In this document: positions 7,583 through 12,400 of the stretch, in pieces | Numbering within the stretch: position 1 is the first letter of the stretch | Layout: each line of letters starts with the position of its first letter | NCBI GenBank assembly: GCA_937935075.1 | Contig: CALGYB010000151.1 | Span: 1-48,415 of the forward strand | Source of the DNA: an uncultured Roseiflexus sp. | GTDB taxonomy: Bacteria; Chloroflexota; Chloroflexia; Chloroflexales; Roseiflexaceae | DNA: 48,415 nucleotides | Direction of reading: 5' to 3' | Notes under the pieces: generated by a model | Seen by the model: only the letters and a program-made list of their open reading frames with translations | Databases searched by the model: none | Told to the model about the DNA's origin: nothing | Position numbers and translations under genes: made by a program

Positions 7583-7936
7583 TAGGGTCTGCCGCGCACA
7601 TCAGTGGAACTACTCCGCGCTTCCGGCATTGATGCTGTTCATGTTGGCGGCATTAGATATGCTACAGCCGAGGATGCGACCATCTTGCGGCTTGCCCGCG
7701 ATGAGCAGCGCGTCGTCGTTCCCTTTGACGCCGACTTCCGCGAACTTCTTGCTCTCTCATGCGTCGCTGCTCCATCGGTCATTCGCATTCGGATCGAAGG
7801 GTTGTGGGCAGCAGCGCTTGTCAGCCTGTTACAGACGGTGCTGACCCAGTGCCAGTCAGACCTGAATCAGGGCGCCGTAGTCACCGTTCACGAGCGGCGG
7901 TTGCGGGTCCGTCGACTGCCACTGTTGCCGGAGTGA
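7566..7936 (+). pseudogene. Broken DUF5615 (PIN-like) toxin gene
   Basis: Remains of a DUF5615 PIN-like nuclease toxin. MKLLLD at 7566, overlapping the antitoxin end by 17 nt, is followed by a lost base near 7584. In the shifted frame the family pattern continues as GLPRTSVELLRASGIDAVHV, then ATAEDATILRLARDEQRVVV, FDADFRELLAL and APSVIRIRIEGL, ending at 7936. Acidic residues typical of the fold survive (LLLD, AEDA, FDADF), so only the frame is broken. An internal ATG at 7604 could give a 110-aa fragment without the first acidic strand, which should be inactive. With the antitoxin also frameshifted, the module is most simply read as decayed. Confidence 0.75.
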
Positions 7937-9120: not shown

Positions 9121-10065
9121 TCATTGGATCTCGAACAACACCACGCGCTCGATGCCACTGCTGACGCCGCGCACCACCATTGACCACTGACCGGGCGGTG
9201 CGTCATCAGGCGCGATCCACGACCAATCCACCCGCCCGTCGTTCACTCCTACCTTTTCCGGGGTTGCCTTTTCGGCGCGACCATCGGGACGGTTGACCCA
9301 GAAAATGACCCCTTCGCGTCCCTGCAAACCTTCTGCGAAGAACCGAAAGAGCGTCCCCGCCCGTCCGCGCCCCGGCGTCACGCCGACCGCAGGCGTCGGT
9401 CGTTCGATAGTCACCGCCACGATCTGCTCGAATCGGCTGTTCCCGCCCCTCACACGGAAGCGCCAGACGCCAGGTTGCGCCTTGTCGGGCGCCGTCCATG
9501 CCCAATCGACCCGTCCATTGGAGATGCGCGGCTGCTCGACCCCGGTCAGCGTTTCTTCACCGTCGGGCGCGGTCAGGAAGAATGCAATAGGATCATCAGG
9601 GGCGAACCCGGCGGCAAAGAAGACGAATCGCGTACCGGGACGCCCGGTAGCGGGGAACGCATTGACCTCCGGTGCGGCCGGCGCCGGCGGCGGTTCGATA
9701 GTAAACAGCCCGACACACACGACGCCGCTGCGTTGACCGCGCGCCACCAGCGACCACGTTCCAGGTTGCGCATTGTCGGGGGCCGTCCAGCTCCAGGCGG
9801 CGCGTCCATCACGGGCGACGCGCCGCTGGAGTTCACTGTCGGGGCGGGCAGGCAGGGCGCGACCATCGGGCGGGTTGACCCAGATATCGATCCGTTCGCC
9901 GCTTGCGAACCCTTCTGCCAGAAAATCAAAGCGCGTCCCTGCCTGCCCGGATGACGGATAGACCGTCGCTGGCAGAATGGGCGACTGCGCCGCTGCCGTG
10001 TGTGACGCGCCAGGCGCCATCAGCGCCGCCAGCGCAGCCCATGCCAGGAAAAGACGTTTCAGCAC
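9121..10065 (-). CDS. Secreted protein with three tandem beta-type repeats
   Basis: 314 aa with a clear signal peptide (LKRLFLAWAALAALMAPG, likely cleaved after AAA-Q) and three repeats of about 85-95 aa. Each starts like YPSSGQAGTRFDFLAEGF, FPATGRPGTRFVFFAAGF or TPGRGRAGTLFRFFAEGL, continues with a PDG segment, and ends with W-x-W-x-APD-x-AQPG-x-W and an RG-x-x-SG strand. This looks like an extracellular immunoglobulin-like fold, but I cannot assign a named family. The GTG at 10065 has AGGTGG 5 nt upstream; another GTG lies at 10074. It starts 13 bp after the stop of the PHP-AlbA_2 gene on the same strand, so the two are probably co-transcribed. Confidence 0.8.
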   Translation of the reverse strand: MLKRLFLAWAALAALMAPGASHTAAAQSPILPATVYPSSGQAGTRFDFLAEGFASGERIDIWVNPPDGRALPARPDSELQRRVARDGRAAWSWTAPDNAQPGTWSLVARGQRSGVVCVGLFTIEPPPAPAAPEVNAFPATGRPGTRFVFFAAGFAPDDPIAFFLTAPDGEETLTGVEQPRISNGRVDWAWTAPDKAQPGVWRFRVRGGNSRFEQIVAVTIERPTPAVGVTPGRGRAGTLFRFFAEGLQGREGVIFWVNRPDGRAEKATPEKVGVNDGRVDWSWIAPDDAPPGQWSMVVRGVSSGIERVVLFEIQ

Positions 10066-10078
10066 ACTGTCCACCTGT

Positions 10079-12400
10079 TTACAACTCTCCGTACTCATCG
10101 AGCAGTTCGCGCCACTCGCCCGACAGTTCATCGCGACGCGCTGCATAGTAGATGTGGTCGATGCCGTTTTCATCGCGGTAGACCAGATCGACCTGCTTGC
10201 GCATCGGGCGCATATATCCCAGGTTGCCCCACCAGCGCACCTTGCTTTCATCGAGTGGCATATCCTGAAGCGACATCCGCGCGGCGTACTGGCGGACGGT
10301 TCCTTCCTCGATATCCTGGAGACGCCAGGGCGCATTGCTCAACTCGCCGGTGCGCAGGTTGCGAAAGACGAAACGGCGCTCACCGAACTCATCGACGATG
10401 ACTTCAACGACCTCGATGCCGGTGCGCGGGCGCGGCACGCGGATCAGGTTCATCCACGCCTCGGTCAATTTCTCGCGCGGCACGCCCGGATATTCCTTGA
10501 TCTCATTCCCTTCCTTGCTGCGCATCATCAGGTCGAAGTACACGTTCCCCTGGGCGTCGCGCCCAATGCGCCAGACGCCGCCGCGCCCGCGCCAGCGCGG
10601 ACGTCGGTCGCTCCATGGCGTTGCGCTGTTGCCCGGCTCCTCGAACACATCCGGGTCTCCCGGCGTATCGTCGCCGAATGAGCGCGGCTCATGCTCAAGC
10701 GTGTCACTCGCGCGGTCATTGATGAGCGACTGCCAGGCAGGACTCAACCCCCAGTCGGAGACGCCGAAGAAGATATGGTCGATCACACCGTTGGCATCAC
10801 GATGCACCAGATCGTATTTGGTGCGATTGCCCTGCCGGTAGGCGCGCCACAGACCGAGGCGCCCCTTCCACTTCACCTGGCTCTGGAGATCGATCCGCCC
10901 CTCGCGCACGTCCTCGTAGCGGCTGATGGCGTATGCCCATAATCCCTGGGCATGATCGCGCGTCACTCCCGAGGTTGTGCGCAGGTCGCGCACCTCATAC
11001 AACCAGACGCCGGCGCGCTTTTGGGCTTCGACAATCTCGACGCCGCTGCGCGGCAGGTCCAGTTCCTGGCCGTTGTCGAGCGGGGTGGCGGCGCCTTCCG
11101 CAAGTGCGCGCCGACACAACTGAATGATTTCGGTGCGGTCGGCAATGACCGTCTCGCCGCCATGTCGCGTGTAGATCACGCCATCGTTCCCGACATACGG
11201 CGGCGAACTGGTAGCGCGTACTTCGACGCGCAGCAGGTCGCGTCCTTCATACGCGATCAACTCGAACGTCAGATACGGTTGCGGATTCAGACGTTCCTGC
11301 ACACTGCACCGCAGCGTCTCACTCAATTGCTCCGGGTGTTCGACGCCGGTCAGTTCGGCTTCCGTGCCGCCGATGATCAGCGTTCCACCGCCGACATTCG
11401 CCAGCGCCGCCACGTCCTGCCAGAGCGTGTCGGCAGCCGACTCCGGGCGCAATACCTGACGATCGTTCTGAGCGCCAAATCGGAGCGTGTCGATCTCCCA
11501 CTGTTTCTGGTCACGCTTGGGAACGCGCACCCGGTCGAAATCGTTCGACGCAAACAGTTCCTTCAGCGCAGCAAACGTCGGCGCAGGCAGGAGAAATTCG
11601 ACATAACGATCACCGATGCCATGACGATGCCAGCCATTCCCTTCGCCGGCATTGACGCGCCGCAGCCGATGGGCGTCGGACCCCTGGAGGCAAAACATGC
11701 GGCGCTCATAATGTTCGGTTTTCCCGTTGTAGAACGTCGGTGACGTAAACTTCTCGTGGTCGGTATAGAAATTGACGAATTCGAGCGCGTGCAACGATGG
11801 ATGCTGGGTGGCAGCGACCCGCGCCTGACCGCTCGTGCCCATGCGCAGGGTCTCGGTGATGACGCCATTTGGTCCGTTGGCGTGTGGCGCAATGACAATC
11901 CCGCCGGCGCGATTGATGATTTCGTAGGCGTCCGTTACGTGGCGCGTATCGGCAATCGAACATGCGCCCTTCTTGAGCAGATCGGGCGGAACGCCAAGTT
12001 GCAGCAGCGTCGCCTCGATCAGGCTGATGGGTCGATCAGGGGCGAAAATTCCCAGAATATGCGCACCGTAATGCGATGTGAATTCAAACCCGGGCAGAAC
12101 CGTAATCCGCGCCAGCAAACGCCGGTACTCGTTGAGACGACTCTGCTCCTCCTCAGTGATGCGCTGCTGGCGTTCGAGCGTCTGGAGAAACTCGATCTCC
12201 TGACGCATCAATTCATATCCATGAACCGTGTTATGATCGGTAAATGCGATGATATCGAGACCTCGTCGCTCCGCTTCCTGCAGAATGTCAAGAAAAGCGA
12301 CTTCTGGTTCTGCATAGTCTTCTGAGGCAGGAGTATGAATGTGTAAATCTGCTCGAAACCACCGCATTCCTCCAGACGAACCATTCCCGTTTTGCGACAT
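10079..12400 (-). CDS. PHP phosphoesterase and AlbA_2 (Schlafen-type) fusion with C-terminal repeats
   Basis: 773 aa, no signal peptide. Residues 12 to about 270 form a PHP domain: ADLHIHT (His20, His22), AFTDHN, EFTSHYGAH, IAPHANG and CLQGSDAH supply the metal ligands of a trinuclear hydrolase site. Residues about 310-430 match AlbA_2, the putative DNA/RNA-binding domain found in Schlafen-like regulators: ADTLWQDVAALANVGGGTLI, then LLRVEVRATSSPPYV and GVIYTRHG. The C-terminal third has two full and one partial repeat of about 100 aa, built around VRDLRTTSG/FRNLRTGEL, KWKGRLGLWR/RWWGNLGYMR and DLVHRDANGVIDHIFF/DLVYRDENGIDHIYY. I do not recognise that repeat. GGAG lies 8 nt before the start. 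The substrate is unknown; nucleic-acid or nucleotide processing is an inference. Confidence 0.85.
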   Translation of the reverse strand: MSQNGNGSSGGMRWFRADLHIHTPASEDYAEPEVAFLDILQEAERRGLDIIAFTDHNTVHGYELMRQEIEFLQTLERQQRITEEEQSRLNEYRRLLARITVLPGFEFTSHYGAHILGIFAPDRPISLIEATLLQLGVPPDLLKKGACSIADTRHVTDAYEIINRAGGIVIAPHANGPNGVITETLRMGTSGQARVAATQHPSLHALEFVNFYTDHEKFTSPTFYNGKTEHYERRMFCLQGSDAHRLRRVNAGEGNGWHRHGIGDRYVEFLLPAPTFAALKELFASNDFDRVRVPKRDQKQWEIDTLRFGAQNDRQVLRPESAADTLWQDVAALANVGGGTLIIGGTEAELTGVEHPEQLSETLRCSVQERLNPQPYLTFELIAYEGRDLLRVEVRATSSPPYVGNDGVIYTRHGGETVIADRTEIIQLCRRALAEGAATPLDNGQELDLPRSGVEIVEAQKRAGVWLYEVRDLRTTSGVTRDHAQGLWAYAISRYEDVREGRIDLQSQVKWKGRLGLWRAYRQGNRTKYDLVHRDANGVIDHIFFGVSDWGLSPAWQSLINDRASDTLEHEPRSFGDDTPGDPDVFEEPGNSATPWSDRRPRWRGRGGVWRIGRDAQGNVYFDLMMRSKEGNEIKEYPGVPREKLTEAWMNLIRVPRPRTGIEVVEVIVDEFGERRFVFRNLRTGELSNAPWRLQDIEEGTVRQYAARMSLQDMPLDESKVRWWGNLGYMRPMRKQVDLVYRDENGIDHIYYAARRDELSGEWRELLDEYGEL

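Follow-up and report, generated by a model that had tools for sequence, protein, structure and literature searches.

A Chloroflexota protein family joining a PHP domain to AlbA_2 and an uncatalogued C-terminal module

The 48,415-nucleotide stretch of uncultured Roseiflexus DNA analysed here (the window) encodes a 773-residue protein. It belongs to a family that has descended vertically in Chloroflexota, in which a PHP metallohydrolase domain is followed by an AlbA_2 domain and a C-terminal module, and it represents the form found in Chloroflexales. This is a real, well-conserved and uncatalogued architecture, and the module is probably a new domain. The reading preferred here, a tentative one, is that of a cytoplasmic enzyme, an exonuclease or phosphoesterase dependent on metal, that would trim nucleic-acid ends, whether of RNA or of ssDNA, as part of stress housekeeping, with AlbA_2 holding the substrate and the modules serving as a recruiting platform.

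Architecture of the protein

The 773-aa ORF, with an ATG start, occupies window positions 10079-12400(-), and the domain order of its product is PHP, AlbA_2 and then the modules, which together fill residues 446-773 (Table 1). An AlphaFold2 model of the protein, made from a 39-sequence alignment, has a mean pLDDT of 84, with domain orientations that are unreliable (pTM 0.48). Pfam, NCBIfam and PADLOC name the first two parts, but the whole fusion is not covered by any library tried, and literature searches for the PHP, AlbA_2 and module combination found nothing. The preliminary description had taken the three-part fusion to be undescribed and its tail to be possibly a new domain; both suggestions stand against the libraries tried, since the tail matches nothing in Pfam, NCBIfam or the PDB sequences and resembles no known fold with confidence. 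The ancestral form of the family is PHP and AlbA_2 with a single module, ~590 aa in all; in Chloroflexales the module is duplicated.

Table 1. Features of the window protein and its neighbour, and loci of the PHP-dead genus
Feature	Position or locus	Strand	Basis
TrlF/Ppl-type PHP metallohydrolase domain, residues ~12-267	11600..12367	-	NCBIfam TrlF, TrlF alignment, ligand columns, 2anu
AlbA_2 (Schlafen-type) domain, residues ~300-436, without the Glu-x-Lys region	11093..11503	-	Pfam PF04326, structure matches, motif region
Module copy r1, residues ~446-567	10700..11065	-	predicted b-b-a-b-b-b-a, pLDDT 91, pTM 0.85
Partial module r2, residues ~597-656, second half only	10433..10612	-	r1 profile match
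Module copy r3, residues ~656-773, acidic	10082..10435	-	r1 profile match, net charge -5
Exported three-repeat protein (MG2/Ig-like), GTG start	9121..10065	-	Pfam MG2 E 1.5e-9
g8 PHP-dead loci	L086, L087, L088, L089, L090, L102, L103

The PHP domain

Pfam matches PHP at residues 17-106 (E 1.2e-4; 22.9 bits, under the 26.4-bit cut-off), and NCBIfam matches TrlF at residues 10-266 (E 2.8e-28) and Ppl over the same residues (E 6e-20). The TrlF match spans profile positions 2-248 of 944 only and reaches 99 bits against a cut-off of 350; that to Ppl spans positions 1-217 of 882 only, with 71 bits against a cut-off of 1000. All nine ligand positions are filled (H20, H22, D55, H56, E106, H114, H173, D242 and H244), the superfamily motifs HxH, D/H, E, H and DxH are present, and the PHP fold of the AlphaFold2 model matches structure 2anu; the metal ligands are thus intact, as first proposed. 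Among 98 aligned members the ligands are kept in 86-95, varying by column. This retention nearly everywhere, together with a PHP dN/dS of 0.03 within Roseiflexus, suggests that catalysis is selected in most lineages.

By score the closest PHP families are TrlF (NF045780, AAA-like ATPase) and Ppl (NF042955, anti-phage), which share with the window protein full-length PHP homology and identical ligand motifs but carry a C-terminal AAA/SMC-like NTPase where the window protein has AlbA_2 and the module. An annotated TrlF protein is co-linear with the window PHP domain end to end (blastp 24% identity, E 2e-20); past this domain it continues into a GRGSGK P-loop-like segment, and the window protein into AlbA_2. 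Ppl is described as a single-gene anti-phage defence system, an exonuclease that degrades ssDNA in the 3'-5' direction and combines a PHP exonuclease domain with an NTPase domain (PMC12904381); because the NTPase is absent, the window protein is not a Ppl. RNase AM (RNase Rnm, YciV), a PHP protein that is a 5'-3' exoribonuclease (PMC9410882), shares the PHP fold and the histidine/aspartate multi-metal active site, but its similarity to the window PHP domain is weak (21 bits) and it has neither AlbA_2 nor the module.

The AlbA_2 domain

An AlbA_2 core was also part of the preliminary description, and it is borne out by a Pfam SLFN_AlbA_2 (PF04326) match at residues 322-417 (E 1.8e-12, 48.2 bits against a 25.3-bit cut-off) and by matches of the modelled fold to 3lmm, 2kyy and 7fex, Schlafen N-terminal domains included. 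The AlbA_2 fold and the GG(G)xLxIG core are shared with SLFN_AlbA_2 proteins in general (bacterial AlbA_2 and the Schlafen core). Unlike these, the window domain is fused to PHP, and it is without profile positions 1-16, which hold the ExK motif seen in L167; the PF04326 match spans positions 17-115 only. The motif segment reads LRFGAQ in the window protein against the EFK-type motif of L167, a comparison judged from the sequences rather than by structural superposition. The SLFN13 active site consists of E205, E210 and D248 (PMC5862951), and by the same kind of comparison the window AlbA_2 does not present the E/E/D site of a Schlafen-type endoribonuclease. A catalytic AlbA_2 is accordingly disfavoured, the Schlafen glutamate motif being missing, and cutting by this domain is unlikely since the segment with those glutamates is not conserved. 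The genome of the window encodes two further AlbA_2 proteins, of which L167:1261-3030(+) keeps the EFK motif and L169:469-1872(-) has lost it.

The C-terminal module

The tail had been described as two full copies and one partial copy of a repeat closing with DLVxRDxNGxIDHI. The copy number is right, but the half copy sits between the full ones (r1 448-564, r2 597-654, r3 656-771), and the motif, although it lies in the module, is followed by about 25 further residues. The repeat is not a chance resemblance, since the r1 and r3 profiles match each other (E 6e-10 to 7e-9), the r1 profile finding r3 at 658-769 with E 5.9e-10, and r1 also matches r2, at 602-654 with E 3.5e-4. Structure prediction of the repeat, proposed at the outset, gives for r1 a confident b-b-a-b-b-b-a fold from 29 sequences. 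Invariant residues include D27, R29, W43, Y45, W66 and G101 (r1 numbering), among which there is no obvious catalytic set. Modules of the r1 type are mostly near neutral; r3 modules are acidic, with net charges of -4 to -13, and this speaks against r3 itself binding nucleic acids.

Searches with the module gave no match in Pfam (best E 0.016, chance level) or among PDB sequences (best E 0.86), nothing above background among PDB folds by Foldseek (best E 0.11), no VIA-align fold reaching Z 5 (best Z 4.7, within background), a best E of 0.045 in BFVD, and nothing in NCBIfam or PHROGs. Chains of the roadblock/longin type (TRAPP, MglB, Rag-type) recur at only Z 3-4, so that a resemblance of the predicted module to this fold may be taken as a lead only.

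Distribution and descent

The gene is present in 83 of 100 relatives and is near-universal and usually single-copy in Chloroflexales. Outside this order the protein is usually about 590-630 aa long with one module, and this form is widespread in Chloroflexota. In a phylum-wide sample of 400 genomes the family profile finds matches at E 1e-10 in 79, in some of them to AlbA_2 or PHP alone, and the module occurs in 39 of 60 genomes among relatives of G417. A tree of 60 sequences needs 17 label changes, as few as 18 taxonomic families allow; the long PHP-dead f1 branch is nevertheless displaced in it. The family tree follows taxonomy, and the gene is an ordinary vertically inherited chromosomal gene.

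Second, three-module copies are found at L188:4909-7206(-) in G498 and at L189:2029-4326(-) in G470, genomes that additionally hold a single-module copy; the second copies are either an ancient paralogue or a transfer from Chloroflexales. The relative encoded at L084:4705-8859(-) reaches 1385 aa, its N- and C-terminus both being extended by long Pro/Ala/Thr-rich stretches.

G417 has in addition a 509-aa protein of the Chloroflexota NYN RNase type (L161:5789-7315(+)) that ends in the C-terminal module of the family (E 5e-24), NYN (residues 7-159, E 4.6e-32) replacing PHP and AlbA_2. Its middle region appears by eye to contain two LOTUS-like helical segments. No further proteins joining NYN to the module were found in the 400 phylum genomes.

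Genomic neighbourhood

The preliminary description had proposed surveying the neighbours of homologues for defence genes. None was recognised as recurrent; what is conserved in distant Chloroflexota is lon and hsp20 instead. For 52 non-Chloroflexales single-module loci the upstream sequence extends 1.4 kb or more, and in 31 of them lon precedes the gene in the same orientation, usually no more than 700 bp away (at L145, exceptionally, 1.9 kb), with hsp20 ahead of lon in 17 of the 31. Each genome checked has between 1 and 4 full lon genes, so by a crude binomial estimate the repeated adjacency is far beyond chance, although the loci share descent and are therefore not independent. The position of the gene right behind lon in many relatives points to housekeeping under stress and not to phage defence as its likely role. 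Within Chloroflexales, this window included, the lon linkage is absent, and no neighbour is conserved across genera. A search for CIRCE heat-shock operators near lon loci gave one perfect site only, TTAGCACTC-N9-GAGTGCTAA at L142:853-879; a distance of about 12 kb separates it from the hsp20-lon-PHP genes, which makes it uninformative.

The gene downstream in the window, noted at first as an odd partner, does begin 13 bp away on the same strand, with a GTG at 10065, and its product does have a signal-peptide-like N-terminus and three repeats (Pfam MG2). A partnership of the two does not follow: the genes adjoin only in the Roseiflexus loci and L006 among 63 loci compared. A two-gene system is on this lack of co-conservation highly improbable despite the close spacing, the more so as one product is exported and the PHP protein has no evident export signal. 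An ORF of 110 aa at window 7604-7936(+) resembles by eye a DUF5615/PIN-like toxin.

Function

In the preferred reading as a nucleic-acid-trimming enzyme, hydrolysis would be performed by the PHP domain, homologous to those of the exonuclease Ppl and of TrlF; AlbA_2 would bind and hold the nucleic-acid substrate; and the C-terminal modules would form a platform recruiting substrate or partner, in a setting of stress-linked housekeeping. In favour of this reading are the TrlF/Ppl type of the PHP domain with its conserved ligands and low dN/dS, the exonucleases Ppl and RNase AM among PHP proteins, the Schlafen-like matches of AlbA_2, the module joined to NYN in G417, the hsp20-lon-gene order and the vertical descent; against it are the loss of PHP ligands in genus g8, the acidic r3, the missing lon linkage in Chloroflexales and the single genome with NYN and the module. 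A broader form of this proposal is possible, though rather doubtful: a phylum-wide, vertically inherited stress-housekeeping system in which a Ppl-type exonuclease was rewired, its NTPase giving way to AlbA_2 and the new domain, and tied to the hsp20-lon operon. The new domain would then be an interchangeable nuclease-targeting platform, joined mostly to PHP and once to NYN, that may outlive catalysis.

A scaffold or regulator, in which the modules (with AlbA_2) form the functional core that binds a partner, be it a protein or the ribosome, with the PHP chemistry as an optional accessory or a nucleotide sensor, would be a comparably doubtful alternative to trimming. It is kept alive by genus g8, of the same family as the window genome, whose members examined have lost PHP ligands, including the DxH pair and H56. 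Pairs within g8 subgroups nevertheless have a PHP dN/dS of about 0.04-0.09, and their modules are 94-100% identical with dN/dS 0.00-0.03; the modules are the most constrained part of the g8 protein. Genus g8 is thus a natural pseudo-enzyme lineage in which the protein is still in use without PHP chemistry. Since the protein stays under purifying selection there despite the lost ligands, hydrolysis cannot be the sole role. The acidic r3 and the weak likeness of the module to protein-binding roadblock/longin folds point the same way, but those fold matches lie within background, and the PHP ligands are kept nearly everywhere else, with the low PHP dN/dS in Roseiflexus noted above.

Small phosphoesters are also among the substrates of PHP domains, some of which are inactive scaffolds, and PHP enzymes with small-molecule phosphoesterase activities exist. 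The window PHP domain might in the same manner hydrolyse a nucleotide, pAp-like or a stress signal, that AlbA_2 senses or binds. This is unlikely, a little more so than the scaffold. There are weak matches to the 3',5'-nucleoside bisphosphate phosphatase and CehA/McbA families, but in NCBIfam no small-molecule PHP family exceeds 36 bits, and with Spaf_1101, CehA/McbA and RNase Rnm counted in the scores are about 37 bits or less, against the 99 and 71 bits of TrlF and Ppl.

That the protein is a Ppl-like anti-phage nuclease with a new sensor is improbable. The PADLOC Ppl model, which stands for a single-gene defence system, matches with E 7.6e-14, but to the PHP domain alone, the NTPase being missing, and no recurrent defence neighbours were recognised at the loci compared. 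The accessory, mobile distribution to be expected of a Ppl is not what the present family shows, being vertically inherited and near-universal in Chloroflexales. Phage searches with the family gave no match, scans of viral contigs found no module, and plasmids gave no full-length match, only the PHP or AlbA_2 part. A usually single-copy gene with a tree that follows taxonomy and no phage or viral-contig matches is therefore not an accessory defence gene, and on present evidence the family is not a defence system.

Significance

A protein family conserved across Chloroflexota thus carries an uncatalogued and strongly constrained domain, and a PHP domain of the phage-defence kind is linked in it to the Lon/Hsp20 protein-quality-control operon. 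The PHP-dead genus g8 offers a direct way to ask which part of the protein is essential, hydrolysis or the module.
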